From contig CAIJYD010000046.1 of NCBI GenBank assembly GCA_903824785.1, positions 1-39,786 of the forward strand: a DNA stretch of 39,786 nucleotides, read 5' to 3'. This DNA is from an uncultured Bacteroidota bacterium. Its GTDB lineage: Bacteria; Bacteroidota; Bacteroidia; Bacteroidales; VadinHA17. The translations under genes and the position numbers were made by a program. Position 1 is the first letter of the stretch. Each line of letters begins with the position of its first letter. Shown in pieces: positions 3,922 through 38,990 of this stretch. The notes beneath the pieces were generated by a model. It had not been told where the DNA came from and made no database searches. It was given only the letters and a program-made list of their open reading frames with translations.

Positions 3922-4004
3922 AATGGATTAAAGCATCTGTTTTCTAAAATTTTTTGTAAATTTAACATGCTGAATAAGGCGCGGTTAATCTGATTTTGTG
4001 TGCT

Positions 4005-21032: not shown

Positions 21033-22217
21033 CTAAATATACTCGAATGTAACCTTCTTCAGCCATTTCTCCTCAAGAAGTCTGGCAATACGTTTTACAA
21101 CAGTACGTCTTATTTCAAGATCAACAGGTAGATTGGGATCCTGGTGGGCAATATTTATTCGAGTTCCTATTATAAAATGAATCTCATCACTTTCCATAAT
21201 CAGTCGTACAATTTTATCGGCAGGTCCTTTTCCGAGTCTGACACTATTATTATATGTTTTAAGGATCTCATTAACCTTCTGGAGGGTAAGAATGCCTTCT
21301 GTTACCAGGTCTATACCTTCAAGAAAGCTTTCAGGCGGCAGCTCCGGATCTTCGAAGATAAGTTCATCAATAATCTTCTTATTCAGTTCTCTGGCAACTA
21401 TGTCAGCTGTTGTTCCACCGCACAGAATCACTTTTCCTTTATACCCGTCAACCTTTACTGAGAGCTCTTTATCTTTATCTTTTTCATAGGGAGGGCCTGT
21501 ACAGATTAGCAGTTTACGGGGTTCCCTGAAATAGATTGTTGCACAACTGATATCATCCCTGGCTTTATAGTTATCATTTTTATGTGCCATGGTTACGATC
21601 TTCCCGGCGAGCATCATTGCTGAAATTGAAGCTTCGCTGGTGACCAGAGAGGCGGCGTAGAAGGCAATGTTATCCCTTTCCCAACCGAAAGGAAATACTT
21701 CTCCACCCATTCCACTTTGCGAAACACCATCGGAACAGAATATTATCCTGTCTTCCTTTTCAGGTTTGAAAGTGCAGGTTTTTAATACTTTTCCTGCATG
21801 TTTTCCTTTTTCAAGAACTACTTTTTTCCATGATGGATCAAATTCCTGATTACCGCGCAATATAACTGTTGAGGGGTTGTCGTATTCTAGTATTGTAGCT
21901 CTGCCGCTGCTCTCAATATCTATAATTGTAAAAGTGGAATAACTGATTTTTCTTTCGCTGCATACCGGAAGGGTATTCATTATTATCTCCGCGATGCGAT
22001 CAACCTCCTTATGTTCTCTCGTAAAATTCAGAGCCATCGTCGAGGTAAGAGTTGCGAGGATATTTGCTTTAACCCCATGCCCCATGCCATCCGACAGCAC
22101 GGCTATTACCCTGTCTTCTTCTTTTATATACCGGTAGAGGAAGACATCGCCTGATATCCTTTCTCCATCATGATTTCTCTGCTGGCTGTTAACTTCAATA
22201 TAAAAGTCTCTGTTCAC
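21033..22217 (-). CDS. SpoIIE-type serine phosphatase of the hydrogenase-sensor operon
   Basis: A 394-residue cytoplasmic protein. Residues 1-225 form a PP2C/SpoIIE phosphatase with metal-binding motifs ISGDVFLYRY, VLSDGMGHG, FCSDGVSQSG and ARDDISCATI. Residues about 240-394 are a second domain that I do not recognise, with a glycine-rich KVILCGGTTADIVARELN segment and a conserved-looking SDEIHFIIGTRINIAHQDP stretch. GTG at 22217 is taken as start because the first ATG lies inside the phosphatase core. It begins 6 bases after the stop of the hydrogenase-like PAS sensor and is surely co-transcribed with it. SpoIIE phosphatases are known neighbours of sensory [FeFe]-hydrogenases, so it probably passes the redox or gas signal onward by protein dephosphorylation. 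Confidence 0.85.
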   Translation of the reverse strand: MNRDFYIEVNSQQRNHDGERISGDVFLYRYIKEEDRVIAVLSDGMGHGVKANILATLTSTMALNFTREHKEVDRIAEIIMNTLPVCSERKISYSTFTIIDIESSGRATILEYDNPSTVILRGNQEFDPSWKKVVLEKGKHAGKVLKTCTFKPEKEDRIIFCSDGVSQSGMGGEVFPFGWERDNIAFYAASLVTSEASISAMMLAGKIVTMAHKNDNYKARDDISCATIYFREPRKLLICTGPPYEKDKDKELSVKVDGYKGKVILCGGTTADIVARELNKKIIDELIFEDPELPPESFLEGIDLVTEGILTLQKVNEILKTYNNSVRLGKGPADKIVRLIMESDEIHFIIGTRINIAHQDPNLPVDLEIRRTVVKRIARLLEEKWLKKVTFEYI

Positions 22218-22223
22218 TGATAA

Positions 22224-24110
22224 TTATCTCTTGTTGTTTTTCAGGATACTTTTTTTCGATTTGTAAGACTCTATTATTGAGTTTAACATCTGTTCGGTTT
22301 CGGAGGCCCCTTCTCCAAGCAGGAACCCGATCTTTTGAACCATTTCAAGATTTTTTTCAATTACTTCGCTTACCCTGTTTGTTACCTCTTCTCCTTGTAC
22401 CTCAGGAGAATAAAGGTCCCGTATTATTGCGCCGCACATCTTGTTTTTCTTTATGGGAAAAATAGAAATATTAAGCATCTTGTCTTCAAAATGGACATCC
22501 TTACTTACCACCGGCTCATCTTCCTTAATAACAAACGTAAACATGTTATAAACATTAAAAGGGATCAGTGTTTTAATGTCGGCACCTGCAAGCCCGGGTA
22601 TTACGTCCGATATGGCTCTGGCATCTTCTCCGATTATGTTAATGAAGCTTTGATTTGAGTGAAGTATTTTCAGATGGTTGTCAACGATCACTACTCCGGT
22701 GGGAAGTTTTTCGAGCATGTTGTTCATCATGTCGGAAGCGCTTTGGGCAATCTCCTTTTCTCTCCTTGCCAGTTCTTCAGATTCCTTGAGAGCTTTTTTT
22801 GTTTCTGCAAATTTTCTGTTTGTCTGCCTGAGGGTTTCAATATACTCCTGCTTATTGCGGAGGTTGAATGTGTGGCACATTTCAGGTATGGCAAGACCTT
22901 TTGCGACTGTTGAAGCAAAATCGCGGCAGGAAAGATAACCGCAGGCTCCGCAGTTAACCTCATCATCGGGATTATCCTTTCCAACTATCTTGAGCACTTC
23001 TGCGATTGCCTCTTCTGGCGGATCAGCGATTCTCTGGTCGTTGGGCGTGAAGCTCCTTGAAAAATCGAGCCTCATCCATTTTTCCATGCTCTGCTGCCAT
23101 ATTGCTTTATCCAGTTTCCCGACTCTTTTTTCTGCATACTTTCTTACAAGGGCTCTTCTTCTGAACCGCTCATTATGATGCTCCATCGCGGGGCCAAGAA
23201 GGCACCCATGACAGAAGAAGAGGTTGAAATGGTGTTTTATGGTGTCGATATATTTATCGAAATCATTTATTGCCTCAAGGATCTCCTCTTTTCCCGAAGC
23301 AGTAATTACGCTGCTCGAAACCATGTCGCGTTTGATCCCTCCTGCCTGGATAATGCCTGCAGGGAGAGGGTAGAGGGCACCCCAGTTGCCGTGGGGTGGA
23401 TCAAAATCGGAGAGTTTTACAAGCCTTTCCTGAATATTGAACTCTTCGAACAGCTGCCTTAACTCTGCAAACGTCAGGACCCCATCGACAAGTTTTCCAG
23501 ATTTATAAATCATCGCTTCGTCTTTTGCATCGATGCAGGGGCCAATCTGTACAGTTGCTACCTCCTGACCATATAACTCTTTTACTACCATAGCTGTTGC
23601 AACCATGGGAGATACCAGAGGAGCAAGGCTCGCAACCATTGCGGGATGGAATTTCTCAATAAGTTTTACAATCGACGGGCAGTTGGCAGTTATCAAATAC
23701 TTGCCTTCAGCTTTAGAGAAGAGTTTTGCATATGCAGCTGCTATAAGGTCAACTCCGAATGAAACTTCATGTACATAATCAAAGCCAAGTGAACGGATCA
23801 TTCCAACGAACTTCCTGTAGTCGGTAATATCATCAAACTCAGATGCAATACTTGGTTCAATAAGCGCAGCAGTTTTCCTGCCCGACGATAAGAGATCTTT
23901 GACATCTTCTCTCGAGTCGCGGAACCCGATTGCATGTGGTGTGCATGAGACATAACAGAGACCGCAGCCAATGCATCTCTCGGGCAGAATATAGGGATGA
24001 GCCTTCTGAGGCTTTACCTCAATGGCATTTACCGGACATACGCGAACGCAGGAATATGAGTTTCTGCATTTCTCGTCGCTGATATAAAGAACAGGTTTTT
24101 TGTCTGTCAT
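22224..24110 (-). CDS. [FeFe]-hydrogenase-like iron-sulfur sensor with PAS domain
   Basis: A 628-residue cytoplasmic protein. In order: a two-cluster ferredoxin domain (Cys15, Ser18, Cys21, Cys25; Cys46, 49, 52, 56), an [FeFe]-hydrogenase-like domain (about 75-350) with H-cluster motifs TANCPSI (Cys144), GPCIDAK (Cys192) and CHGCLLGP (Cys300, Cys303), a 4Fe-4S domain NCGACGYLSC (Cys387, 390, 395, 412), a coiled coil and a PAS domain (about 460-570). It resembles sensory hydrogenases found with PP2C phosphatases. The proton-shuttle cysteine is Asn143, the H-cluster lysine position is Ala195, and the first L3 cysteine position is Phe. It has no kinase domain. Start at 24110 is set by AGGAG five bases upstream; the open frame reaches a TTG at 24152. 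Confidence 0.85.
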   Translation of the reverse strand: MTDKKPVLYISDEKCRNSYSCVRVCPVNAIEVKPQKAHPYILPERCIGCGLCYVSCTPHAIGFRDSREDVKDLLSSGRKTAALIEPSIASEFDDITDYRKFVGMIRSLGFDYVHEVSFGVDLIAAAYAKLFSKAEGKYLITANCPSIVKLIEKFHPAMVASLAPLVSPMVATAMVVKELYGQEVATVQIGPCIDAKDEAMIYKSGKLVDGVLTFAELRQLFEEFNIQERLVKLSDFDPPHGNWGALYPLPAGIIQAGGIKRDMVSSSVITASGKEEILEAINDFDKYIDTIKHHFNLFFCHGCLLGPAMEHHNERFRRRALVRKYAEKRVGKLDKAIWQQSMEKWMRLDFSRSFTPNDQRIADPPEEAIAEVLKIVGKDNPDDEVNCGACGYLSCRDFASTVAKGLAIPEMCHTFNLRNKQEYIETLRQTNRKFAETKKALKESEELARREKEIAQSASDMMNNMLEKLPTGVVIVDNHLKILHSNQSFINIIGEDARAISDVIPGLAGADIKTLIPFNVYNMFTFVIKEDEPVVSKDVHFEDKMLNISIFPIKKNKMCGAIIRDLYSPEVQGEEVTNRVSEVIEKNLEMVQKIGFLLGEGASETEQMLNSIIESYKSKKSILKNNKR

Positions 24111-24115
24111 GTTTA

Positions 24116-24120
24116 CTCCT
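24116..24120 (-). promoter_or_regulatory. Shine-Dalgarno fixing the sensor start
   Basis: AGGAG on the minus strand lies five bases before the ATG at 24110. Such sites are uncommon in this window, and this one argues for the 24110 start over the longer TTG-initiated frame. Confidence 0.65.
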
Positions 24121-24167
24121 GTTTTTTTGCTTTTAATTTCTTCTCCCCACAACTGTAAGTAGTGTTT

Positions 24168-24437
24168 TTAAATAAATCCGGCAAACTCTTTCTCCAGTAT
24201 CCCTTCTATTTTTGAAATGGTGACGCCCTGGATTGTTACTCCGTTTATATTCAGATTCGGTCCATTGCTGCAATGACCCATACAGCGCGCTCCTTTAAAA
24301 ACCACCTTGTCGTCGAGATGATTCTTCCTCAGATATTCCCTTATAAACATCACAACATCCTTGTTACCTCTTGAAAAACAAGAACTGCCAAGACAAATCT
24401 GCATTTCAATCCTCTGAACCATTTTTCTACTGTTCAT
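24168..24437 (-). CDS. Thioredoxin-like [2Fe-2S] ferredoxin
   Basis: An 89-residue protein of the (2Fe-2S) ferredoxin domain family, similar to the HydC/NuoE C-terminal fold. The four cluster cysteines are visible in LGSSCFSRG (with a preceding cysteine in QICLGSSC) and in ARCMGHCSNGP. It is the first gene of the minus-strand operon, 57 bases before the ATG of the hydrogenase-like sensor, and probably passes electrons to or from that sensor. Its start could be the first ATG (24437) or the internal Met6; the -7 box at 24454-24461 lies just upstream and fits either. Confidence 0.82.
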   Translation of the reverse strand: MNSRKMVQRIEMQICLGSSCFSRGNKDVVMFIREYLRKNHLDDKVVFKGARCMGHCSNGPNLNINGVTIQGVTISKIEGILEKEFAGFI

Positions 24438-24648: not shown

Positions 24649-24666
24649 GTGTTAATAAAATAACAA
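24649..24666. promoter_or_regulatory. Rex-like operator upstream of the hydrogenase operon
   Basis: The 18-mer GTGTTAATAAAATAACAA fits the Rex consensus TTGTTA-N6-TAACAA with one mismatch. It lies in the 294-base divergent region 28 bases upstream of the -7 box at 24694, and a rex gene is present at 32741. Binding is inferred from the motif. Confidence 0.55.
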
Positions 24667-24731: not shown

Positions 24732-25202
24732 ATGGCCACAGATCTTGACATAATTCTGAAAAAATATAAACAGGGAAAAAGAGAAGAGCTTATTCCCATC
24801 CTTCAGGAAATACAGGAAGAGCTGGGTTATCTTTCTGAAGAAGCTATTGTAAAAGTTGGCGGGTTTCTTGGACTCAGCACAACAAAAATCTATGGGCTCG
24901 CAACATTTTACGACAGATTCAGGTTTATACCTTCAGGGAAAATAAAGGTTAGTATCTGTCATGGCACTTCATGTTTTCTTAATGGCTCACAGTCAGTTAT
25001 AAATAAAATAAAAGATGAGATAGGTGTGCTCCCCGGCCAAACTACCAGGGACGGAAATTTCAGCTATGAGATCGTATCATGTATGGGTGGCTGTCATAAC
25101 GGCCCGCTTATTAATGTCAATGGTGAATATCATGCCCACATTAAAGCTGAACAGCTGCCTGAACTGATTAAAAGACTGAAGTACGTTATTGAAAACGACT
25201 AA
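24732..25202 (+). CDS. hydC: HydC/NuoE-like [2Fe-2S] subunit of hydrogenase complex
   Basis: A 156-residue NuoE (24 kDa) family protein. It has an N-terminal helical part (EELIPILQEIQEELGYLSEE) and a thioredoxin-like [2Fe-2S] domain with Cys76, Cys81, Cys117 and Cys121 (CHGTSC; CMGGC). It is the first gene of the plus-strand operon and starts about 25 bases after an exact -7 box. In the NAD-dependent bifurcating hydrogenases this subunit passes electrons between the NuoF-like flavoprotein and the catalytic subunit. Only 17 bases separate it from the next gene. hydC is named by complex position; some organisms label the subunits differently. Confidence 0.88.
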   Translation: MATDLDIILKKYKQGKREELIPILQEIQEELGYLSEEAIVKVGGFLGLSTTKIYGLATFYDRFRFIPSGKIKVSICHGTSCFLNGSQSVINKIKDEIGVLPGQTTRDGNFSYEIVSCMGGCHNGPLINVNGEYHAHIKAEQLPELIKRLKYVIEND

Positions 25203-27159: not shown

Positions 27160-28881
27160 ATGCTTTTTACAATACAGGTAAATAATAAAAAAATCAAGGC
27201 TGAAAAGGGAGAGACAATCCTCTCAGCTCTGAACCGAAACGGGATTATCATTCCTACTCTCTGCCGTATGAAGGAGTTTACTCCAACAGGTGCCTGCCGT
27301 ATGTGTGTAGTAGAAGTTGATGGCCGCGACCGTCTGGTAACTGCCTGCTCGCAGCCTGTTGAAGAGTGGATGAAAATAAAAACCCATTCACCCAGAGTTA
27401 TCCAGGCCAGAAAAACAATTGTTGAACTGCTTCTTTCAAACCATCCCGATGATTGTCTCTACTGCGACCGAAACCTTAACTGTGAGCTTCAACGCCTGTC
27501 GGAAGAGCTGAATATAAGAGAACGCCGCATCCGAGGAAGAAAAATAAAACCACGTCTCGACCAGTCAAGTCCTGCTATCGTCAGAGAACTTTCGAAATGT
27601 ATTCTTTGCGGAAGATGCGTAAGAGTATGTGAAGAGGTTGTAACTGCTACCTCCCTCGATTTTATAAATAAAGGCCGGGAGACTCATGTCGGAGCAGCAA
27701 TGGACAGGGATTTCAACTTCTCGAGTTGCATACACTGCGGCCAGTGTGTTCTTGTCTGCCCAACCGGCGCCCTCCATGAAAAACATAATATAAATGAAGT
27801 TCAGGAGTATCTTCATAAACCTGATATTATAAAAGTAATTCAGTATTCCCCGATGGTTACTGTTGGAATTGCTGAAGAACTCGGGATGCGCTACAACAGG
27901 GAATTTGATAAGATACTGAATGCTGTCCTTCGTAAAATAGGTTTTGATAAAATATTCACAACAGGAACAGGAACAGATGTTTGTATTACTGAAATAACCA
28001 GTCAGCTTTCTGAAAAAATTGATAGTAATTCTCAGATTCCGTTATATCTTTCCGCCTGTCCTGCGTGGGTTAAATATGCCGAGCAGTTCATCCCTTCACT
28101 GATCCCTCAGCTTTCAACGGTAAAATCTTCCCAGCAGATAACCGGGGTTCTTGTTAAAACACTTGTGGCAGGTCAGCTGGGGGTAAAACCGGAAGATATC
28201 TTTTCAGTATCCGCAACTCCTTGTATGGCAATGAAGTTCGAAGCCCGCCGCGACGGAATGATGAGGAAGGGGATAAGTGATGTAGATGCCGTTCTCACTG
28301 TAAGAGAGCTGGTCAGGCTTATCAGGCTTTATGGTATTGATACTACAAATATAGAGCATGAACCTGCCGATGAGCCTATGGCAAACAGAAGCTCCTCGGC
28401 AGTACTTGCTGAAGTCTCGGGTGGCCTTGTCGAAAGTGTTATCAGATCGTATCATTATCTGAAACTGAAGAAAGAGGCTGATAAACAGTTGTTTAAAAAA
28501 CTGCGCTCAGGTGGTGTTTTCAGGGAAGCCTCTGTTCCTGTTGGCGAAATTGAGTTGAAAGTGGCAGTGGTTGACGGTCTTACAGGTCTCGAGAAGTTAA
28601 AAGCATCAATTGCCTCGGGGAAAAAATATGACCTTATAGAGGTTATGACTTGCCCGGGAGGATGTGTACACGGAGCAGGCCTTCCTTTCAGCAGCTCAAA
28701 GGATGAGATCAGGTCAAGGTCAAAACTGGTATATCAGGCCGACGATACTGAGGCTATTAACCTTCCGTGTAAATCGCCCACCTTAATAAATCTTTATGAA
28801 AAGCTTTTAAAGGAGAATATTGATATTGCAGATAAGAAGATTTTTTATACTCATTTTGAGAGGAAAAATGTATTGTTGTAA
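27160..28881 (+). CDS. hydA: HydA-like [FeFe]-hydrogenase catalytic subunit with altered active-site residues
   Basis: A 573-residue subunit with the full electron relay of an M3-type hydrogenase: a [2Fe-2S] domain (Cys35, 46, 49, 63), the His-Cys3 cluster in HPDDCLYCDRNLNC, two 4Fe-4S clusters (CILCGRCVRVC; CIHCGQCVLVC), and an H-cluster domain from about 225. The H-cluster ligands are Cys300 (SACPAW), Cys355 (TPCMAM), and Cys498/Cys502 (TCPGGC). Numbering happens to match Clostridium pasteurianum CpI, making changes easy to read: Ala299 for the proton-shuttle Cys, Ile279 and Gln282 for the two proton-path Glu, Met358 for the H-cluster Lys and Thr353 for Met. Ser319 is retained. Encoded with HydC/HydB, it would be expected to couple NADH and ferredoxin to a hydrogenase-type reaction, but ordinary H2 turnover is doubtful. 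Confidence 0.85.
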   Translation: MLFTIQVNNKKIKAEKGETILSALNRNGIIIPTLCRMKEFTPTGACRMCVVEVDGRDRLVTACSQPVEEWMKIKTHSPRVIQARKTIVELLLSNHPDDCLYCDRNLNCELQRLSEELNIRERRIRGRKIKPRLDQSSPAIVRELSKCILCGRCVRVCEEVVTATSLDFINKGRETHVGAAMDRDFNFSSCIHCGQCVLVCPTGALHEKHNINEVQEYLHKPDIIKVIQYSPMVTVGIAEELGMRYNREFDKILNAVLRKIGFDKIFTTGTGTDVCITEITSQLSEKIDSNSQIPLYLSACPAWVKYAEQFIPSLIPQLSTVKSSQQITGVLVKTLVAGQLGVKPEDIFSVSATPCMAMKFEARRDGMMRKGISDVDAVLTVRELVRLIRLYGIDTTNIEHEPADEPMANRSSSAVLAEVSGGLVESVIRSYHYLKLKKEADKQLFKKLRSGGVFREASVPVGEIELKVAVVDGLTGLEKLKASIASGKKYDLIEVMTCPGGCVHGAGLPFSSSKDEIRSRSKLVYQADDTEAINLPCKSPTLINLYEKLLKENIDIADKKIFYTHFERKNVLL

Positions 28882-29021: not shown

Positions 29022-30983
29022 ATGTTAGTTTACACTATAAAGGAACTTTGCCGTACTTGTTACACCTGCGTAAGGGAATGCCCTGCCAAAGCTATTCGTA
29101 TTGTAGGCGGTCAGGCCGAGGTGATAGATGAAAGATGTATCGCCTGCGGTAACTGTACAAAAGTGTGCAGCCAGGGGGCCAAGGTCTTTCTCAACACAAC
29201 CGACAGAGTAGTAAAACTTCTTGAAAATAATTTAAAAGTGGCTGCAATAATTGCTCCCAGCTTTCCTGCCGAATTTTCGGATATACCTGATCATCTTGTT
29301 CTTATAGGTATGATAAAGGCTTTGGGCTTTGAATATGTTTCGGAGGTGGCCTTTGGTGCCGACCTTGTTGCAGACAGGTATAAAAAACTTGTTTCGGAAA
29401 GTAAGAATTTCTACATCTCATCAGATTGTCCTTCAATAGTCAGTTATGTAAAATTCTACCATCCGTCACTTGTAGCCAACCTTGCTCCGGTGGTCTCTCC
29501 AATGGTGGCTATGTGCAGGGTTGTCCGTGAAAAACAGGGAAGCGATACCCGTATAGTTTTTATTGGCCCGTGCGTTGCCAAAAAAGCTGAAAGCACTGAA
29601 ATAGATGAGGCAATAACGTTTACCGAATTGAGAGAGATGTTTGCCGAAAGAGGCATTTCTCCTGAGAATATAACCCAGATTGATTTTGATCAGCCAGTTG
29701 GTGGAAGAGGTGCAATTTTTCCTGTAGCCCGTGGGTTGCTCCAGACAGCTAAGATCAGCGACAATGCTATTACCGGGAATATTATTGCAGCTGAAGGCCG
29801 GATTGATTTTCAGGGGGCATTGAAGGAATTTGAGGCAGGGCTGATTAAGAACCAGCATATGGAACTTCTTTGTTGTGAAGGATGCATTATGGGCCCGGGC
29901 CTCTCAAAAAACGGTAAGCAGTATAACAGAAGATCCCTTGTAAGTTCATATGCCAGCAGCAAGATGCAGAATATAGATTCAGGAAGCTGGCAGAAATCTT
30001 TTGACGAATTCGCTGAACTCGACCTCTCTTTTCACCATAAGCCGGAAGATCACAGGCTCAATACCCCCGACGAGAATGATGTGAACGATATTCTCATTAA
30101 GATGGGAAAAAAGACCAGTAAGGATCAGCTCGATTGCGGTGCCTGCGGATATGAAAGCTGCGTAGAGCACGCTATTGCAATTAAGAAAGGTCTTGCCGAA
30201 GTAGAAATGTGCCTGCCTTATACAATCGAAAAACTGCATAAATCAGTCAAGGATCTTGCTTTATCCAACGAGAAACTTTCTTCGATGAAACAGGCGCTGA
30301 AACAGTCCGAAAAGCTTGCTCATATGGGGCAGCTCTCGGCAGGAATTGCCCACGAACTGAATAATCCACTTGGAGTTGTGATAATGTACAGCAATATTCT
30401 TTTAGAGGAATCATTAACAGACGATCCTATGCGGGAAGATCTGAAACTCATTGTTGAGCAGGCAGGCAGGTGTAAGAAAATTGTTGCCGGGCTCCTTAAT
30501 TTTGCAAGAAAAAACCAGGTTAACCACCAGCTGGTGAGCATTACCTCTCTTGTTAATCATAGTCTCGAAAGCCTTATTATTCCTGAAAAAGTAAAAATTA
30601 ATATTGAAGATTTAACTACCAACCCTGAAGCAATGCTCGATTCGGAACAGATGATGCAGGTTCTTACAAACCTGGTCAAGAATGCTGTGGATGCTATGCC
30701 TGACGGAGGTATTATTGATATTAAACTGGAAGATACTTTGAGTGATGTTATTATTACAATAAGCGATACAGGAACAGGTATAAAAGAGGAAGACCGGGCA
30801 AAGATTTTCGAACCGTTTTTTACAACGAAAAGTATCGGACAGGGTACGGGACTCGGGCTGGCAACAGCATATGGTGTCGTTAAGATGCATAAAGGTCAGA
30901 TTACTGCCGAATCGAATAATGATAAGGCAAAAGGGCAGACAGGAACAAGTTTCAGGATTATGCTGCCGAGACGCAAGGAATAG
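29022..30983 (+). CDS. [FeFe]-hydrogenase-domain sensor histidine kinase
   Basis: A 653-residue cytoplasmic sensor kinase. In order: two complete 4Fe-4S clusters (Cys10, 13, 16, 20; Cys39, 42, 45, 49), a hydrogenase-like domain with H-cluster motifs SSDCPSI (Cys136), GPCVAKK (Cys184, with Lys187 at the H-cluster lysine position) and CCEGCIMGPG (Cys284, Cys288), a 4Fe-4S domain DCGACGYESC, a short coiled coil, HisKA with phosphoacceptor His444 (GIAHELNNPL), and HATPase (NLVKNAVDAM; ISDTGTGI; GQGTGLGLATAYG). It keeps all H-cluster cysteines and the lysine but has Asp135 where catalytic enzymes have the proton-shuttle cysteine. It lacks membrane helices. It is placed to sense H2, CO or redox state and to phosphorylate the response regulator at 31089. 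Confidence 0.88.
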   Translation: MLVYTIKELCRTCYTCVRECPAKAIRIVGGQAEVIDERCIACGNCTKVCSQGAKVFLNTTDRVVKLLENNLKVAAIIAPSFPAEFSDIPDHLVLIGMIKALGFEYVSEVAFGADLVADRYKKLVSESKNFYISSDCPSIVSYVKFYHPSLVANLAPVVSPMVAMCRVVREKQGSDTRIVFIGPCVAKKAESTEIDEAITFTELREMFAERGISPENITQIDFDQPVGGRGAIFPVARGLLQTAKISDNAITGNIIAAEGRIDFQGALKEFEAGLIKNQHMELLCCEGCIMGPGLSKNGKQYNRRSLVSSYASSKMQNIDSGSWQKSFDEFAELDLSFHHKPEDHRLNTPDENDVNDILIKMGKKTSKDQLDCGACGYESCVEHAIAIKKGLAEVEMCLPYTIEKLHKSVKDLALSNEKLSSMKQALKQSEKLAHMGQLSAGIAHELNNPLGVVIMYSNILLEESLTDDPMREDLKLIVEQAGRCKKIVAGLLNFARKNQVNHQLVSITSLVNHSLESLIIPEKVKINIEDLTTNPEAMLDSEQMMQVLTNLVKNAVDAMPDGGIIDIKLEDTLSDVIITISDTGTGIKEEDRAKIFEPFFTTKSIGQGTGLGLATAYGVVKMHKGQITAESNNDKAKGQTGTSFRIMLPRRKE

Positions 30984-31010: not shown

Positions 31011-31028
31011 ATGTTAATTTAATAACAG
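31011..31028. promoter_or_regulatory. Rex-like palindrome before the response regulator
   Basis: ATGTTAATTTAATAACAG has perfect TGTTA/TAACA arms six bases apart, with single mismatches at the outer positions to TTGTTA-N6-TAACAA. It lies 60 bases before the ATG at 31089. A possible promoter (TTTG at 31054-31057 and GAAATTTG at 31074-31081) follows it. Confidence 0.45.
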
Positions 31029-31088: not shown

Positions 31089-31484
31089 ATGAAGAAGAGT
31101 GATATTACAATACTTGTGGCAGACGATGATCCTGATTATCTTTTTCAGACAGTATTCAATCTTGAGAAAGCAGGTTATAAAACGATGGCGGTAGAGAGCC
31201 AGGCAGAAGCGGAATCGGTAATTGCCCGGTTCAAGCCTCATCTGGCAATATTCGACCTGATGATGGAAAGTGACGACAGCGGTTTTATCCTTTGTTACAG
31301 GATTAAAAGAAAATATCCCGATGTGCCCGTAATTCTTGCAACAGCAGTATCGCACGAGACAGGTTTATCTTTCAGTATCGATTCGGAGCAGGAGAAGTCG
31401 TGGATCAGGGCTGACAGGTATCTTGAAAAGGGTATCAGACCGGAACAGCTCGATCAGGAGGTGATGAAACTATTAAAACTTTAA
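31089..31484 (+). CDS. Single-domain response regulator
   Basis: A 131-residue CheY-like receiver with no output domain. The acidic pocket is VADDDPD, the phosphoacceptor aspartate is in IFDLMME near residue 55, the switch threonine is in ILATAVS, and the conserved lysine is in YLEKG. It lies directly behind the hydrogenase-domain kinase and one base before the receiver-kinase gene. It is probably an intermediate phosphate carrier between the two kinases or to a regulator elsewhere. A Rex-like site upstream suggests an independent, redox-controlled promoter. Confidence 0.85.
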   Translation: MKKSDITILVADDDPDYLFQTVFNLEKAGYKTMAVESQAEAESVIARFKPHLAIFDLMMESDDSGFILCYRIKRKYPDVPVILATAVSHETGLSFSIDSEQEKSWIRADRYLEKGIRPEQLDQEVMKLLKL

Positions 31485-31485
31485 A

Positions 31486-32622
31486 ATGGCAGTTTTAAAA
31501 GTACTTGTTATTGATGATGAACCCGGCATACGCTCAGGTGTTTCGCGCATTCTGAATAATTTTCACGTTACTTATCCTTTTATGGATGAGGATTATACTT
31601 TTGAAGTAACCGAAGCCGGAACAGGTGAAGAGGGCATCGCAATACTTGAGCGGGATATGCCGGATATTCTCCTTCTGGATAATAAGCTACCCGGAATACA
31701 GGGGGTGGAAGTTCTGGAGTATATAAGGAAAAGGAATTATGATATTGTTGTGGCAATGATCACATCCTATGCTTCACTCGATGTCGCTATCCGTGCCACC
31801 CGCGACGGAGCCATTGACTTTATCCCTAAACCTTTTACTCCCCAGGAACTTAAGTCGAGCATAGAGAATATCACCAAACAGCAGTATCTTAAGAGGATAA
31901 CTCATAAGATGAAGCAGGAAGGGAAGAAGATAAGGTATCAGTTTCTTTCTGTTCTTTCTCATGAATTAAAGGCTCCTCTGAATGCGCTTGAAGGCTATCT
32001 GAGAATGATGCAGGAGAAACAGGCAGGGGACATGATCGAAGATTACGCCACACCAATTGAAAGATCTCTTCAGAGAATTCAGGGAATGAGAAACCTGATT
32101 ATGGATCTCCTTGATTTTACAAAAATACGACTCGAAAGAAAAGAGGAGAAGATTCAGGAGGTCAATCTTGAAGAGGTGGCTTCGGGAGCAATAGTTACAG
32201 TTCAGCCTTATGCTATCCAGATGGATGTGACCATAACCCTCGATGTCAGGTCGGGTGCTGTTATAATGGCCGATCCTGATGATATGGAGATTGTTTTTAA
32301 TAATCTCATTTCCAATGCAGTAAAGTATAATAAAACTGGCGGAAAAGCAGAAATTACCATCGACAGTTCCGACAGCGAAGCAATACTGATTTTTTCCGAT
32401 ACCGGCATTGGCATTACAAAGATTGATACTGAGAACCTTTTTGCCGAGTTTGTCAGGATTAAGAATGAAAAGACCAGAAATATTTCCGGCAGCGGACTGG
32501 GCCTTTCTATTGTGAAGAAGGTTGTTGGCCTTTACCACGGAACCATTAATGTTGAAAGTACCCCTGATGTGGGAACAGTATTCACAATAAGACTACCAAA
32601 AAAAACATTAGCAATTACTTGA
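31486..32622 (+). CDS. Receiver-histidine kinase hybrid
   Basis: A 378-residue cytoplasmic protein with an N-terminal receiver (VIDDEPGIRSG; phosphoacceptor in ILLLDNKLPGIQG; KPFTP), then HisKA with SVLSHELKAPLNALEGYL near residue 162, and HATPase (NNLISNAVKYN; FSDTGIGI; SGSGLGLSIVKKVVG). REC-HK proteins of this type take phosphate in and pass it on, so with the single-domain receiver it suggests a branched relay downstream of the hydrogenase-domain kinase. It follows the receiver gene after one base, consistent with co-translation. Confidence 0.87.
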   Translation: MAVLKVLVIDDEPGIRSGVSRILNNFHVTYPFMDEDYTFEVTEAGTGEEGIAILERDMPDILLLDNKLPGIQGVEVLEYIRKRNYDIVVAMITSYASLDVAIRATRDGAIDFIPKPFTPQELKSSIENITKQQYLKRITHKMKQEGKKIRYQFLSVLSHELKAPLNALEGYLRMMQEKQAGDMIEDYATPIERSLQRIQGMRNLIMDLLDFTKIRLERKEEKIQEVNLEEVASGAIVTVQPYAIQMDVTITLDVRSGAVIMADPDDMEIVFNNLISNAVKYNKTGGKAEITIDSSDSEAILIFSDTGIGITKIDTENLFAEFVRIKNEKTRNISGSGLGLSIVKKVVGLYHGTINVESTPDVGTVFTIRLPKKTLAIT

Positions 32623-32740: not shown

Positions 32741-33367
32741 ATGATGAAACTACCCGGAAAAACTGTTGAAAGACTTAGCGAGTACAGAAGGACACTTCTG
32801 GAATGCCTTACCGAAAAGAGAAATTTCATCTTTTCCCACGATCTTGCCGCACGGCTTCACATCACTGCCGTTCAGGTCAGGCGCGACCTGATGCTGATAG
32901 GTTATTCTAGTGTTCTCAGAAAAGGATATGATGTGCGTGAGCTCATTGATACCATCGGTAACATTATAGATTCTGAAGAGAGCATGAATGTTGCTGTAAT
33001 TGGAATAGGAAATCTTGGAAGAGCAGTAGCCGGCTACTTTAAGGGAAAACGCTCAAAGCTTAATCTCGTGGCCTCATTTGATAATGATCCCCAAAAGGTA
33101 AACAAGGTTATTTCAGGCGTGAAATGTTATCCTTATACCGACATCGAAAAAATGATTAAAGAACTTGATGTCAGAATAGCTATTCTCACTGTTCCCCCCG
33201 ATTTCGCACGGGAGATCACGGAAGAGGCTGTCCGGTTTGGAATTAAAGGGATCCTAAATTTTACGACTATCCCTTTGAATGTTCCTTCCGGGGTTTACCT
33301 TGAAGAATATGATATGATAACCTCAATTGAAAAAGTAGCATATTTTGTTAAGGAGAATAAGGTGTAG
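32741..33367 (+). CDS. rex: Redox-sensing transcriptional repressor Rex
   Basis: A 208-residue Rex protein. The N-terminal winged helix (LPGKTVERLSEYRRTLLECL; HITAVQVRRDLMLIGY) binds DNA, and the C-terminal Rossmann domain with VAVIGIGNLGRAVAGY and SFDNDPQKV binds NADH/NAD+ and senses their ratio. Length and motifs are typical. It follows the receiver-kinase gene after 118 bases, and starts 16 bases before the RibF-like gene. The Rex-like sites at 24649-24683 and 31011-31028 make this protein the likely regulator of the hydrogenase locus. Confidence 0.93.
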   Translation: MMKLPGKTVERLSEYRRTLLECLTEKRNFIFSHDLAARLHITAVQVRRDLMLIGYSSVLRKGYDVRELIDTIGNIIDSEESMNVAVIGIGNLGRAVAGYFKGKRSKLNLVASFDNDPQKVNKVISGVKCYPYTDIEKMIKELDVRIAILTVPPDFAREITEEAVRFGIKGILNFTTIPLNVPSGVYLEEYDMITSIEKVAYFVKENKV

Positions 33368-33382
33368 TATTATGTCTGCCAA

Positions 33383-34303
33383 ATGAATATTTTCAGAAGC
33401 TTTGAAGAGGCAGTGGCCATCAGAAATCCTGTTGTTACCATAGGTTCGTTTGATGGTGTTCACATTGGTCATAAAACAATTCTTAACCGTCTCAGGATGC
33501 TGGCTGAAAAGAACGATGGCGAATCTGTTCTTGTCACTTTCGACCCACATCCGCGTAAAGTCCTTTACCCCGATACAGCCGGGAAAGATCTGAAACTTAT
33601 TAATTCGGGAGAAGAAAAGATGGAACTCCTTAGCAAAGCGGGCCTTAATAATATTATAATAATTGAATTCACCAGGGAGTTCTCAAAAATTACCAGCGAA
33701 CAGTTTGTAAGAGATATTCTTTATGGAATGCTAAAGGCGAAGGTGGTGGTAGTTGGATTTAACCATCATTTCGGTTTTAATAAGGAGGGAGATTATAAAC
33801 AGCTCTGGGCCTGGCAGAAACTGTATAACTTTGATGCAGAAGAAATTCCTGAGCAGGAGGTTCAGCATGAAACAGTCAGCTCAACAAAAATCCGGCAGGC
33901 CATAAGCGAGGGTTATATTCAACGGGCAAATGCCTACCTCGACCACTACTATATTATTATGGGGATACCGGAAGTTTTTCATTTCGATGGTGCTTTTAAT
34001 ATTCCTTCTCTATTTAAAGTTCCGCTTACTGAAGAATGCAAACTTCTTCCTTCTCCAGGTATTTATGCGGTCTCTTTAGAGGGTGATACTTTTTACTCAA
34101 AAGGGATGGCAATCATTCACAAAAGAGCTGAAGAGAAAGCTGAAGTTCTTCTTGATATTTTTGAGGATATCAAACTGTCTGCTGGCCGCAAAATCACCAT
34201 CTTTTTTCATAAAAAAATCCATGGTGCTGTTAATCTGTTAGATAGTAAATACGAGGGGAGGATAATTTATGCAAAAGAAGAGATTTCGGAACTTATTTTC
34301 TGA
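33383..34303 (+). CDS. RibF-like FAD synthetase with degenerate riboflavin-kinase domain
   Basis: A 306-residue protein of the RibF family. The N-terminal nucleotidyltransferase has GSFDGVHIGHKTI, VTFDPHPRKVL, GFNHHFGFNKEGD and SSTKIRQAI, so FMN adenylylation to FAD is well supported. The C-terminal half (about 185-306) occupies the riboflavin-kinase position, but the usual GFPTAN-type motif and the conserved kinase catalytic region are not visible (GIPEVFHFDGAFNIPSLF instead). It is probably FAD synthetase only, and possibly a second copy serving the flavin-dependent complex next door. It begins 16 bases after rex, suggesting co-transcription. Confidence 0.8.
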   Translation: MNIFRSFEEAVAIRNPVVTIGSFDGVHIGHKTILNRLRMLAEKNDGESVLVTFDPHPRKVLYPDTAGKDLKLINSGEEKMELLSKAGLNNIIIIEFTREFSKITSEQFVRDILYGMLKAKVVVVGFNHHFGFNKEGDYKQLWAWQKLYNFDAEEIPEQEVQHETVSSTKIRQAISEGYIQRANAYLDHYYIIMGIPEVFHFDGAFNIPSLFKVPLTEECKLLPSPGIYAVSLEGDTFYSKGMAIIHKRAEEKAEVLLDIFEDIKLSAGRKITIFFHKKIHGAVNLLDSKYEGRIIYAKEEISELIF

Positions 34304-34495: not shown

Positions 34496-35920
34496 ATGAG
34501 GTTCAATCCTGAGAAACTGAGCATCCCGGATCAACGGATGCAGCCTTTTATCGACCCGGAAGAGATTTGGAACCTGATAAACACTACAAAGCCTGACAAA
34601 CTGAGGGTAAGGGATGTTATTGCAAAATCGCTTGATAAGCAAAGGCTTACAATGGAAGAGACCGCTGTTCTCGTGAACGCCGTCGGTACCGGGTTGGCTG
34701 ATGAGATTAAACAGGGGGCACGTGAACTGAAACAGAGAGTATATGGGAACCGCATCGTTCTTTTTGCCCCTCTTTATGTTGGAAACAGATGTATCAATAA
34801 CTGTAAATATTGCGGTTTCAGAACTTCTAATGAAAAGGCTATTCGTAAGACATTAACAGATAATGAGTTAATTGAAGAGGTAGTGGCCCTTGAAGAGAAC
34901 GGGCAGAAAAGGCTGATCCTTGTTTATGGAGAGCATCCTGATTACTCTCCTGAATTTATTGCCCATTCAGTAAAACTTGTTTACGGTGTGAAAAAGGGAA
35001 ACGGCGAAATACGCCGGGTGAACATTAACGCTGCTCCTCTTGATATTGAAGGGTTCCGAACTGTAAAAGAATCAGGTATAGGCACATACCAGGTTTTTCA
35101 GGAAACTTATCATCCTGAGGCTTACAAATGGTATCATCTGGGAGGTAAAAAGAAGGACTATGACTGGCGTCTGACATCGCTCGACAGGGCGCAGGAAGCC
35201 GGAATTGATGATGTGGGTATCGGTGCTCTTTTCGGTCTCTACGACTGGAGGTTTGAGGTGATGGGCCTTGTTCGTCATACCAACCATCTGGAAGCTTGTT
35301 ATAATGTTGGTCCGCATACAATCTCTTTTCCACGAATAAAGGATGCAGTTGATCTCAATCCCGATAAAAAATATGAGACCGCCGACGATGATTTTAAAAA
35401 ACTGGTTGCAATACTCAGGCTTGCCGTTCCTTATACCGGATTAATCCTTACTGCAAGGGAAGCCCCGGAAATAAGAAAAGAGGTATTACAATATGGTGTT
35501 TCACAGATAGATGGTGGAACAAAGCTCGAAATCGGGTCATATGCTGATTCAAAAAGCGAGGAACAGAACCTTAACCGTGAGCAATTCCGGATAAGTGATG
35601 CACGTACCCTTGCTGAGGTGATAGATGAATTGTTAAGTGACGATTACCTTCCTTCATTCTGTACATCGTGTTACAGAATGGGCAGGACCGGTGAACATTT
35701 CATGGAGTTTTCAGTACCCGGGTTTATTAAACGATTCTGCACACCTAATGCTATTCTCACCCTTGCGGAATATATTTGTGATTATGGTCAGGGTGTTACG
35801 GTTGAAAAAGGGTGGCTTGCAATCGAAAAGAATCTTGCGAGCATGGAACCTGACATAGCGGCCGTTACCCGTGAGAAGATCGGGCGGATTAAAACCGGAG
35901 AGAGGGATCTTTATTTTTAA
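34496..35920 (+). CDS. hydG: [FeFe]-hydrogenase maturase HydG (tyrosine lyase)
   Basis: A 474-residue radical SAM enzyme that splits tyrosine to make the CO and CN ligands of the H-cluster. The SAM-cluster motif is CINNCKYC (CX3CX2C, near residue 98). The C-terminal auxiliary cluster motif is complete, CTSC...C with 22 residues before the last Cys (CX2CX22C, near 388-414), distinguishing HydG from ThiH. FAPLYVGNRC and EIGSYADSKSEEQN are further family stretches. Length is normal. HydE and HydF are not in the window. Its presence shows the cell can make a genuine H-cluster for at least one [FeFe]-type protein. Confidence 0.94.
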   Translation: MRFNPEKLSIPDQRMQPFIDPEEIWNLINTTKPDKLRVRDVIAKSLDKQRLTMEETAVLVNAVGTGLADEIKQGARELKQRVYGNRIVLFAPLYVGNRCINNCKYCGFRTSNEKAIRKTLTDNELIEEVVALEENGQKRLILVYGEHPDYSPEFIAHSVKLVYGVKKGNGEIRRVNINAAPLDIEGFRTVKESGIGTYQVFQETYHPEAYKWYHLGGKKKDYDWRLTSLDRAQEAGIDDVGIGALFGLYDWRFEVMGLVRHTNHLEACYNVGPHTISFPRIKDAVDLNPDKKYETADDDFKKLVAILRLAVPYTGLILTAREAPEIRKEVLQYGVSQIDGGTKLEIGSYADSKSEEQNLNREQFRISDARTLAEVIDELLSDDYLPSFCTSCYRMGRTGEHFMEFSVPGFIKRFCTPNAILTLAEYICDYGQGVTVEKGWLAIEKNLASMEPDIAAVTREKIGRIKTGERDLYF

Positions 35921-36158: not shown

Positions 36159-38135
36159 ATGAGATATTTTCTTTCAATATTTATTTTATTTGTTTCTCTC
36201 GCAGAATCTGAAGCGCAGAATGTTGTTGTTCTGGACAGCATAAGTCAGGAATACAGGGATATTACTCAGGTTTCATATTTATTCGATCCTTCCGGAGCAC
36301 TTACCCTGGCTGATGTTTCTGCACCAGGAAAGAATTCAGAATTCATTCTTAACACTAAGCCTGTAGTAAATCTTGGAATGACAGGCAGGGATTGCTGGTT
36401 AAAATTTCCTGTTGTAAACAGGTCGGATCTTCCTGACTGGTTTCTGGAAATACATTTTGCCAGCCTTAAAAATCTGACATTGTATCTTGTTGACGGAAGC
36501 GGGAAAGTTGTTTCTGTACAGGAGCAGGGGATCTCGCCCGGAAATGGATTCGGTAAGAATAAATTCAACTATCCTCTTTTTACATTAAATCTTCCTGACA
36601 CTTCGGCCTATAAAATCTATCTTCATATTTCAACTTACACTTCTTTAATTGTCCCTATTAACATATATAGTCCCACTGTGTTTTCTGTCGGGACCAGAGC
36701 TGACAGGGATTTTGTTTTTCTTTTGCTAGGTATTATTGCTGCTTCAGTAATATTTAATCTGTTACTGTTTTTTCTGACCCAGGAAAAAAGTTATCTTTTT
36801 TTATCCATCTACATGTTTTTTATTGTTGTTCATTCCTTTTTTCTTTACGGTTATGGCTATATATATATTGACTGGCTGAGTATTGCATTGAAATTGAATA
36901 TAAAGATTTTATTATATAGTCTCATCTGTATCAGCCATTCTCTTTTTGCAATTTATTACCTTAATATGCGAAAAGGAACGTTTCTTTTCAGGTTATTTAT
37001 TTTTATCGTAGTTGTTTTTTCAATTGTTTTTGCGGGAGTATTGTCGGGGGTTATTCCACTCCTGCCAGGGAACAAGTTCATTACATTTAGTTTTCTCGTT
37101 TTGGCACCTATTGACGTCACCGCAGGTATAATAATCTACAGGAGGGGATTTAAGCCTGCCATTTATTATGTAGTGGCATTCAGCCTGACTATTCTGGCTG
37201 CTATACTGACAACCAGTACTTTTTTTGGGGTTGATCAGTCTTCATTTATCGGACTGTACTCACATCTGGTATCATCGTCGTTTTTTGCTTTGGTAATAAC
37301 AATGGGACTTTCTGAGAAAATCTCTGCTCTGCGGGCTGAACGCCTGCATAACAGGCAGCTGATTACGGACAAGCTTGATCTGAGAATAGAAATATCTGAA
37401 CGCAAAGAGAAAGAGAATGCTTTACTTGAATCAGAGGCTCAGCTTCTTAGTCTTAATGCAACAAAAGATAAATTCTTTTCCATAATTGCCCACGATCTGA
37501 TGAATCCGTTTCATGCAATAATTGCATACAGTAATGATATGCTTGAAGATCTGAAGGAGAATGATATAAAACGGCTGGAACGAAATACAGGATTTCTGAA
37601 CGAGCTGGCAGAGAATACTTACAGCCTTTTAAACAATCTTCTTATCTGGTCGCGCTCTCAGACCGGGCAGATAAGTTTTAATCCTGTATATCTGGATATA
37701 AGTGATATCATAGCCGGTTCGGTAAAATTCTTCGAAACTATTGCCTCAGCAAAAAGTGTAACACTTATTAATAATGTAAGCAGTAGGATTTCAGTAAAGG
37801 CAGATTCTGACATGATTAAAACCATCTTTCGTAACCTGATCTCAAATGCAATAAAGTACACTTACAAAGGAGGCCGTGTAACAATTGATATTCAACAGAA
37901 TAATGATTTTTTAGAAATAAGTGTAACAGATACAGGCATTGGAATTGATGATGATAAGATTGACAGGCTCTTCTCAGTCACCAGAAGTTTCAAGACTCTT
38001 GGCACAGGAAACGAACCGGGAACAGGATTGGGTTTAATACTTTGCAAAGAGTTTATTACATATCATAATGGTTTCATCAGTGCAAAGAGTTCTTCAGGCA
38101 GAGGAACAACCTTCACTGTTAAATTGCCATTGTAA
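36159..38135 (+). CDS. 7TMR-DISM sensor histidine kinase
   Basis: A 658-residue membrane sensor kinase. A signal peptide (RYFLSIFILFVSLAESEAQ) leads into an extracytoplasmic beta-sandwich (about 25-180) of DISMED2 type. Seven membrane helices follow (about 185-385, from FVFLLLGIIAASVIFNLLLF), then a coiled coil, HisKA with FFSIIAHDLMNPFHAIIAY near residue 445, and HATPase (NLISNAIKYTY; VTDTGIGI; GTGLGLILCKEF). DISM domains often sense carbohydrates or other small ligands. It is followed after 24 bases by a REC-LuxR regulator, its likely partner, and sits between hydG and gvpA. Confidence 0.87.
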   Translation: MRYFLSIFILFVSLAESEAQNVVVLDSISQEYRDITQVSYLFDPSGALTLADVSAPGKNSEFILNTKPVVNLGMTGRDCWLKFPVVNRSDLPDWFLEIHFASLKNLTLYLVDGSGKVVSVQEQGISPGNGFGKNKFNYPLFTLNLPDTSAYKIYLHISTYTSLIVPINIYSPTVFSVGTRADRDFVFLLLGIIAASVIFNLLLFFLTQEKSYLFLSIYMFFIVVHSFFLYGYGYIYIDWLSIALKLNIKILLYSLICISHSLFAIYYLNMRKGTFLFRLFIFIVVVFSIVFAGVLSGVIPLLPGNKFITFSFLVLAPIDVTAGIIIYRRGFKPAIYYVVAFSLTILAAILTTSTFFGVDQSSFIGLYSHLVSSSFFALVITMGLSEKISALRAERLHNRQLITDKLDLRIEISERKEKENALLESEAQLLSLNATKDKFFSIIAHDLMNPFHAIIAYSNDMLEDLKENDIKRLERNTGFLNELAENTYSLLNNLLIWSRSQTGQISFNPVYLDISDIIAGSVKFFETIASAKSVTLINNVSSRISVKADSDMIKTIFRNLISNAIKYTYKGGRVTIDIQQNNDFLEISVTDTGIGIDDDKIDRLFSVTRSFKTLGTGNEPGTGLGLILCKEFITYHNGFISAKSSSGRGTTFTVKLPL

Positions 38136-38159
38136 TAATTATAGAGTAACAATAAGATT

Positions 38160-38990
38160 ATGAGCGGTTATACAATTCTAGTAGCTGAAGATGAGCCTTC
38201 AATCCTTATCCATACCTCTGAAACCCTGGAGAAAAGCGGATATTTCATAATGAAAGCCGTGAACGGGAAGGAGGCTGTAAATCTGTTAAATGAAAAAAGG
38301 GCTGATCTGATAATTCTCGACTGGAGCATGCCTGTAATGGATGGAATGGAAGCATTGCTTCATATTAAATCTGATCCTGTCACTGCTGCTATTCCCGTGA
38401 TCTTCCTTACCGGCCAGATGACATCGCGTGAGAATCTTAGTAAAGCCTTTGAAGCAGGGGTAACCGACTTTATAAAAAAGCCTTTTGATAAGTCGGAACT
38501 TCTTGCCCGTGTTAATTCTGTTTTTAAAACAGTAGAATACCACCGTCGGGAGATTACCGCCAAAGACAGGGAACTGGCATCGGTGGCTTTAAATATTGCC
38601 CACAACTCAGAAATAAACCAGCTTCTGGTTTCCCGGCTGGATCAGATAAAAGAGCTGGCCAGGAAAAACAGCTACGAGCTGATGCCGGTTATTAATGACC
38701 TGATAGAAGATGTCTCCGTAATAAAACAAACGCATAACTGGGAGAGATTCAGTGACCATTTCACAATGATCTATCCGGCATATGTGAAATCTATTTCCGC
38801 TGTACATCCCGGTCTTTCTCCTTCTGATATGAAACTATGCATGTTATTAAGGCTTAATATCAGCACTAAGGATATTGCAGCCATCACCTGTCTTACCTAC
38901 GACAGCATCCGGGTTTCACGCACTCGTCTGCGTAAAAAGCTTGGTCTCCATGGAGAAGCAGGACTGGTTTCCTACCTGCTCCAGTTTTAA
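38160..38990 (+). CDS. Response regulator with LuxR-like helix-turn-helix
   Basis: A 276-residue regulator. The receiver domain has VAEDEPS, phosphoacceptor in ILDWSMPVMDG near residue 53, FLTGQ and KKPFDKSELL. A helical linker (about 125-210) follows, then a C-terminal LuxR-like helix-turn-helix (LSPSDMKLCMLLRLNISTKD; CLTYDSIRVSRTRLRKKLGL). Paired with the 7TMR-DISM kinase, it is a candidate to bind the CCCCTACA array before that operon and perhaps to control the gas-vesicle genes that follow, but no copy of the array is seen before gvpA. Confidence 0.83.
   Translation: MSGYTILVAEDEPSILIHTSETLEKSGYFIMKAVNGKEAVNLLNEKRADLIILDWSMPVMDGMEALLHIKSDPVTAAIPVIFLTGQMTSRENLSKAFEAGVTDFIKKPFDKSELLARVNSVFKTVEYHRREITAKDRELASVALNIAHNSEINQLLVSRLDQIKELARKNSYELMPVINDLIEDVSVIKQTHNWERFSDHFTMIYPAYVKSISAVHPGLSPSDMKLCMLLRLNISTKDIAAITCLTYDSIRVSRTRLRKKLGLHGEAGLVSYLLQF

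Follow-up and report, generated by a model that had tools for sequence, protein, structure and literature searches.

The window (the whole stretch of 39,786 nucleotides analysed here) is one entire contig (G000:C46) of a 4.69 Mb assembly with a completeness of 97.8%. Genes for a SpoIIE-type phosphatase, HydS1 and a thioredoxin-like protein lie in this order on one strand, while the other carries HydC, HydB, HydA, HydS2 fused to a kinase, a response regulator, a response regulator fused to a kinase, Rex, RibF and HydG (Table 1). The name RibF is presumptive. HydABC, HydS proteins of types C1 and C3 and Rex are all known kinds, C1 and C3 being classes of HydDB (PMC5037454). Two further sets of regulators were observed on the contig: a 1111-amino acid protein (3996-7331) that carries a SpoIIE phosphatase domain at its C-terminus, making it a second SpoIIE protein, and weakly matches a two-component propeller, and a 7TMR-DISM histidine kinase with a response regulator after HydG (36159-38990), similar regulators being met in other loci only as stray cases (L071, L193).

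Table 1. Genes and predicted sites of the hydrogenase locus in the window
Feature	Position	Strand	Basis or remark
SpoIIE-type phosphatase	21033..22217	-	domain search
HydS1, H-cluster-domain protein (N299, A358), adjoins the phosphatase, group C3-like	22224..24152	-	domain search, alignment
Thioredoxin-like [2Fe-2S] ferredoxin, resembling the C-terminal part of NuoE	24168..24437	-	
Predicted Rex-type operator TGTTAATAAAATAACA	24650..24665	+	upstream of hydC, followed by a TAnnTTTG motif
HydC (NuoE-like [2Fe-2S]), four Cys kept	24732..25202	+	domain search, alignment
HydB (NuoF-like), 644 aa	25220..27154	+	domain search, alignment
HydA-like subunit, pocket I279/Q282/A299/T353/M358/A417/E418 (CpI numbers)	27160..28881	+	ORF, domain search, alignments
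HydS2, H-cluster domain (D299, K358) fused to FeS, HisKA and HATPase, group C1-like sensor kinase	29022..30983	+	domain search, alignment
Second predicted Rex-type site	31012..31027	+	upstream of the response regulator; in 9 of 45 loci of the M358 class
Single-domain response regulator	31089..31484	+	ORF, conserved neighbour
Response regulator fused to histidine kinase	31486..32622	+	domain search
Rex, sole PF06971 match in the genome search	32741..33367	+	profile search
RibF-like protein	33383..34303	+	conserved neighbour
HydG maturase	34496..35920	+	TIGR03955, 487.4 bits (cut-off 312.15)

The HydA-like subunit is encoded by an intact frame of 573 amino acids with an ATG start. It matches PF02906 in the profile search (E 8.5e-66), and its closest solved structures are the HydA of the HydABC complexes of T. 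kivui (8a6t; E 3.5e-131), A. woodii (7q4v) and T. maritima (7p5h), together with CpI. The protein scores under the cut-offs of the group A NCBIfam models (360.7 versus 405.95 for TIGR02512; 578.3 versus 765 for NF040763), and its blastp identity reaches 34-38% with canonical HydA copies and, among the matches listed, 21-29% with the HydS proteins of the locus. The domain search detected no PAS, kinase, C-terminal FeS or other signalling domain within the HydA frame; a kinase and an FeS domain belong to the neighbouring HydS2. The fold of the predicted structure resembles 8a6t (best match) and CpI, with a mean pLDDT of 69.7 that falls below 50 at residues 120-208 and in five shorter stretches, and for this reason the model was not used for cofactor geometry.

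Residues of the pocket were called from HMMER and MAFFT alignments against CpI and the three HydABC structures; the numbers of the window protein equal those of CpI from about 124 to 477 and run one behind thereafter, so that C499 is window residue 498. The MAFFT alignment to CpI gives I279, Q282, K286, A299, C300, S319, Q325, T353, C355, M358, E361, A417, E418, M497, C499 and C503, and all accessory ligands are filled (C34/46/49/62, H94/C98/101/107, C147/150/153/157 and C190/193/196/200). The first-pass annotation had announced, from the letters alone, four H-cluster cysteines with all accessory clusters and the residues I279, Q282, A299, T353 and M358 beside a kept S319, and the alignment to CpI bears out each of them. 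A misregister of the motifs, the objection that it had raised against itself, is rejected: in the alignments to CpI and to the solved HydABC HydA, the HMMER and MAFFT registers agree and every ligand position is filled. The proton path E282-S319-E279-C299 is broken by Q282, I279 and A299, S319 alone remaining, and M353, K358 and F417 of the group-A pocket are replaced by T353, M358 and A417. S230, M232, A417 and E418 are further differences from the CpI pocket, in which M497 and Q325 are kept. K358 contacts a cyanide ligand of the H-cluster. There is no mention of K358 among the literature matches listed, and a search for literature on the H-cluster lysine or Gly418 found none. Three findings go beyond the initial annotation, namely that the changes are clade-wide, that HydB is altered as well and that a new acid stands at 418.

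We defined the class to which the window belongs by M358, whose count is thus fixed by construction. Eighty related loci were found with peptide seeds including PCMAMKFE, which enriches the set for M358, the whole-protein searches being seeded differently; the first alignment contains 59 M358 rows (58 of the 80 loci and the window), and an unseeded genome search adds one more (60). Named relatives of HydA in the related-locus search are almost all Bacteroidales or Bacteroidetes MAGs. Rows shorter than 400 amino acids, below 60% coverage or at 30% identity or less were removed before the first alignment, as were L003 and L004 (copies of the window); partial rows (e.g., L019, L044, L056, L075) were retained and appear as gaps. 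The 167 alignment rows include duplicates, since L094 and L096 repeat L002 and L001 by place and some whole-genome loci (e.g., L101) apparently repeat genome_contigs loci (e.g., L061). Within the class, A299 and T or S at 353 are found in 60/60 sequences, while 418 is E or D in each of the 59 sequences not gapped at this position and 417 is A (52), S, T or V. The H-cluster cysteines are invariant (C300 and C355 in 60/60, C499 and C503 in 59/59), as are Q325 and E361 (60/60), and S319 is kept in 59 of the 60. Outside the class, position 358 is K in 21 and R in one of 22 other syntenic homologs, and K in seven canonical references. Being shared by all 59 M358 sequences of the alignment, the pocket changes are not due to chance. 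In eight pairs dN/dS ranges from 0.03 to 0.12, the ratios being rough with dS above 1.3 in seven of them, and by this measure the HydA class appears to be under strong purifying selection. It is worth recording that the loop HVGAAMDRDFNF (27685-27720, residues 176-187) and the residues R36 and R58 are rich in class-specific residues, which perhaps reflects a changed partner interface near the accessory clusters.

Compared with the group A3 HydABC complexes (8a6t, 7q4v, 7p5h), the window complex has the subunits and every HydA cluster ligand in common with them, as well as the cluster cysteines of HydC and the majority of those of HydB; it differs from them at C299, E279, E282, M353, K358 and F417, by a HydA below the TIGR02512 cut-off and by a HydB that has lost N-terminal [2Fe-2S] cysteines and is altered in the FMN/NADH pocket. 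Apart from Thr353, which CpII of C. pasteurianum shares with the window HydA, we know of none of these pocket changes in CpII. M353T is a natural change in this active enzyme, according to PMC10055695. In CpI, E279A/Q and C299A/S mutants retain less than 1% of activity, E282Q 8.2% and C299D 30-80% (PMC6226526), and a strongly slowed enzyme, one of the options offered by the first-pass annotation, is on the strength of these mutants likely if no substitute relay exists. Sensory enzymes with Ala at 299 are described as active but slow, and substitute proton relays have been proposed for them, namely Tyr at the 417 position in TmHydS and the acid E252 in TamHydS (PMC10055695, PMC10407848 and PMC8163306). 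Two traits of sensory HydS are present in the window HydA, a non-Cys residue at 299 and a small or hydroxyl residue at 353, and a third, non-Met at 497, is absent, M497 being found in 59/59 class rows with a residue there. TmHydS (group C, T. maritima) resembles the window HydA by Ala299, a small residue at 353 (Gly) and an operon shared with another hydrogenase gene; it has a PAS domain, Ser497 and Tyr417 of its own, unlike the window HydA with its M497, A417, E418 and NuoG-type N-terminal clusters and its place in a HydABC. TamHydS (group D, Thermoanaerobacter mathranii) likewise has Ala299, a hydroxyl residue at 353 (Ser) and, in the loop that follows 417, a newly gained acid, with a C-terminal FeS domain and Leu497 as its own features. 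This acid, E252, replaces a Val of group A, and we propose E418 as its counterpart in the window, although the two occupy different positions (E252 is taken as CpI 423 from the paper's Val).

To follow the order of these changes, we used a tree of 110 HydA rows without HydS rows, in which the nine pocket columns were left out and the rows filtered by length and thinned to below 85% identity (below 82% for the window class); it results from a quick search with SH-aLRT supports. Ninety-five Bacteroidales rows form one clade (99), in which 24 rows (support 87) and two basal rows retain E279, E282, C299, M353, K358 and F417, and 69 rows form a clade (97) where 67 of 69 are without E279 and the loci mostly carry the SpoIIE-HydS1 module. 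The window class is a single clade (100) on a long stem, and C299, M353 and K358 all persist in the group closest to it (89, not starred). The best tree requires no fewer than 13 switches into or out of C at 299 and no fewer than 11 into or out of K at 358 (6 with R treated as K). Among the other non-canonical rows (n = 63), 299 is C in 30, D in 17, S in seven, N in four and R, H, L, Y or E in one each, and all 63 retain every HydA cluster cysteine. Seen on this tree, E279 appears to have been lost first, the losses of C299 and K358 following repeatedly. The most extreme sister pockets (L148, L150, L154, L160-L163) have R, S, N, L, Y or E at 299 and A, R, G or S at 358, and the search around two extreme-pocket loci (L175, L177) did not recover parts of the sensor locus. 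Of the 84 loci with at least 7 kb upstream, 75 carry HydS1; E279 is kept in 2 of these 75 (both having lost E282) and in 6 of the 9 loci without HydS1, although L187, among these six, is an ordinary copy that falls outside the clade. The raw counts for an association of E279 loss with HydS1 are suggestive but represent one or a few events, and independent-pair tests of it, underpowered with 1 to 6 supported pairs, are not significant.

The NuoF- and NuoE-type partners accompany the window HydA as in group A3 HydABC, and HydB too has been modified. The 54 HydB sequences of the class all keep C476, C493/496/499, C548, C578/583 and eight C-terminal cysteines, which by analogy we would assign to B1, the hinge and B3/B4. 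Cys 48 and 83 of the N-terminal [2Fe-2S] cluster occur in 0/54, versus 72% and 81% of 47 sister loci and 89% and 100% of 9 canonical-pocket loci; C79, the third of three alignable conserved N-terminal cysteines, is kept in 98% of the class. C441 is likewise found in 0/54, in 55% of sisters and in 9/9 canonical loci. In or near the FMN/NADH pocket the class has S206, K or R234 and E316 (54/54 each) and S278 (52/54), the window HydB itself having S206, K234, S278 and E316. Published signs of a bifurcating HydB are extra Fe-S domains, A/E and M at Tm 232/234, F367 and GGPSG (PMC7311640). The window HydB keeps the C-terminal clusters, A240 and F392 and differs by T242 in place of M and GGASG in place of GGPSG, the P of the second motif persisting in 13/54 class members. 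The label 'bifurcating-type' given by the first-pass annotation accordingly holds for the subunit make-up and only in part for the signature residues, two of the four signs being missing and the FMN/NADH pocket altered. Across the rows, HydB Cys 83 is lost in 6/13 without M353 versus 3/43 with it, a suggestive raw count; the raw table outside the window class gives D234 lost in 5/11 rows without K358 versus 6/45 with K358, and no clear link of D234 to C299. Independent-pair tests of 299, 353 or 358 loss against loss of the HydB [2Fe-2S], again underpowered (1 to 6 supported pairs), were not significant.

Most sisters, at 41-53% identity, preserve the gene order of the locus, as does the window class. 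Class loci contain HydS1 in 43/43 cases with 7 kb upstream, HydS2 in 42/45 with 2.5 kb downstream (L053, counted among the three misses, has an overlapping HydS2) and Rex in 40/40 with 6 kb downstream. Loci with other non-canonical pockets have HydS1 in 32/35, HydS2 in 38/48 (some misses being genes that overlap or lie beyond the filter distance) and Rex in 43/46, and those with the canonical pocket (E279, E282, C299) in 0/6, 8/10 and 3/10, respectively. Since canonical-pocket sisters of the same locus possess the same HydS2 and kinase genes (8/10), the kinase linkage alone is no proof of a sensor role. HydS1 homologs have N at 299 in 58/60 and lack K at 358 in 60/60, and HydS2 homologs have D at 299 in 68/68 and K358 in 67/67. 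The L3 motif of HydS1 is FFCHGC, with Cys at 500 and not at 499 in 58/60 homologs, and it may bind the H-cluster differently from HydS2. A canonical HydA gene adjoins the SpoIIE-HydS1 end in L085/L195 (apparently one contig), L176, L183 and L185.

Rex-type sites were sought with the pattern TGT[TG]A-N6-T[AC]ACA, derived from the Rex consensus, and we take the TAnnTTTG motif behind the first predicted operator to be a Bacteroidetes -7 box. Such a site lies upstream of hydC in 46/47 class loci, 36/44 sisters and 4/11 loci with E279, versus 0.21, 0.21 and 0.03 expected from shuffles that preserve base content only. The TGTTAATNNNATAACA form occurs 16 times in the genome (reversed control, 0); one Rex-type site is situated 80 bases before hydC of a second hydrogenase copy on contig C24 and two precede a small ORF ahead of hydB of a third on C75. 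Both signs of a Rex regulon are present, a predicted inverted repeat upstream of hydC and a rex gene, the one found in this genome. Consensus scans for promoters and terminators stayed at chance level, and a literature search thin on subscription papers found no paper on Rex with Bacteroidetes hydrogenases.

This genome encodes two further HydA copies, both with K358 and C299 (motifs MPCTAKKFE and MPCLAKKYE), and HydE and HydF outside the locus. Of 36 genomes in the window's genus (its own included), 30 contain a match of at least 60% identity. One or more additional HydA matches, at about 34-38% identity where listed, occur in 29 of these 30; individual residues were read in G000 and G677, and the other members were counted by identity. 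The HydA of the C24 copy (L001) reads TSCSPGW, with Ser at the position of the H-cluster ligand C300, as does A. woodii 7q4v. Ser at this motif position is called common in PMC11406978; we found it in 4 of 40 canonical-pocket rows, one a duplicate. The HydB of this copy is short (386 amino acids; L217:6292-7449, G000:C24) and is perhaps of a non-bifurcating NADH-linked type.

How should this assemblage be understood? The explanation that we prefer, held tentatively and at slightly under an even chance, is that within Bacteroidales a group-A HydABC turned from a fast metabolic hydrogenase into the slow input device of a hydrogen/redox control locus. It builds on second-shell residues replaced as a set (C299A, M353T/S, K358M, F417A and G418E/D, with E279 lost earlier), on the altered HydB pocket and on a neighbourhood that comprises two HydS-type proteins, a sensor kinase cascade, Rex, a phosphatase of the SpoIIE type and a predicted Rex-like operator. 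The pocket would be converging on the sensory HydS-like type, giving a slow H2/redox input, with protons perhaps moving via E418. A slow HydS-like H-cluster served by E418 is proposed because sensory enzymes with A299 are slow and because an acid sits beside 417, where side-chain bulk is gone. HydE, HydF and HydG would still install [2Fe]H in the HydA-like subunit; H2 would react slowly at the tuned pocket, protons would exit through the new acid at 418, beside 417 near the ADT amine, and electrons would travel along the Fe-S wire, so that the redox state of the complex would track H2, NAD(H) and ferredoxin. The HydS2 and HydS1 partners would read this state and thereby set the expression of other hydrogenases. 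That the whole bifurcating HydABC has become a hydrogen/redox sensor, its Fe-S wiring largely intact and the charge of its H-cluster pocket altered (K358 to M, G418 to E), with a new proton relay and a rebuilt HydB nucleotide site, feeding a HydS-kinase/phosphatase cascade, and that the sister variants at 299 (D, N, S, R, H, L, Y, E) form a natural mutational series, is possible and calls for appreciable doubt. Of the three options left by the first-pass annotation (another proton route, slowed catalysis, or catalysis or sensing of something else), the context of Rex, HydS and two-component genes and a genome with two further HydA copies and with HydE, HydF and HydG favour sensing with an altered proton route. 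Against a sensor it must be said that the HydA chain itself is without a signalling domain, that Rex-type sites also precede other hydrogenase operons, and that the retention of HydB, HydC and most clusters goes beyond the needs of a sensor.

Two rivals have to be taken seriously, a slow metabolic enzyme and a complex lacking [2Fe]H. It is somewhat unlikely, in our view, that the complex is still a metabolic NAD/ferredoxin-linked hydrogenase, slower, biased to one direction and with a substitute proton route through E418 or waters. HydABC is complete, with C-terminal HydB clusters and HydC; control by Rex fits a metabolic enzyme equally well, because the sites precede other hydrogenase operons; and the Thr353 of CpII and the Ala299 of TmHydS and TamHydS occur in active enzymes. 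This has to be set against the near-complete loss of activity that removal of E279 or of C299 each causes in CpI, a HydB whose NADH/FMN pocket is altered and from which two bifurcation signatures are gone, and a genome that already has other HydA copies. We consider it unlikely that the [2Fe] subcluster is no longer bound and that [4Fe-4S]H alone serves an NAD(H)/ferredoxin redox relay or a redox sensor without H2 chemistry. The lysine in contact with the cyanide ligand has become Met in the class, 6 of the 63 other non-canonical rows have A, S or G in its place, and 230, 232, 353 and 417 are changed too, but C503, Q325, M497, S319 and E361 are retained in the class, HydG lies in the locus and HydE and HydF in the genome, though they also serve other hydrogenases. 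Different chemistry at the H-cluster pocket or sensing of another small molecule (e.g., CO) seems very improbable: the charge shift near the cluster (K358 lost, E418 gained) and the diverse pockets of sister branches would suit it, but no gene of the locus indicates another substrate and its sensors are of H2 or redox type by family. A decaying pseudogene, which the missing catalytic residues might suggest, is rejected as next to impossible given the intact frame, the low dN/dS and the retention of all cluster cysteines and of synteny.

We found no description of this locus or of a bifurcating HydA without the proton path, in a search thin on subscription papers and hence weak as evidence of absence. 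With that scope, the novelty lies in a HydABC branch of group A whose H-cluster pocket has been rebuilt, K358 being among the residues lost, and which is fixed in a sensor locus. According to a 2025 paper (PMC11803613), each [FeFe]-hydrogenase group conserves the protein surroundings closest to its H-cluster, and one group-A branch breaks this rule. Residues that are crucial in laboratory mutants have been lost repeatedly in nature while the cluster cysteines stay, and the resulting series (at 299, from C to D, N, S, A and others; at 358, from K to R, A, S, G and M) offers natural material on how the H-cluster may be tuned from fast catalyst to sensor. Taken as a whole, the locus points to a hydrogen/redox control hub in uncultured Bacteroidales.
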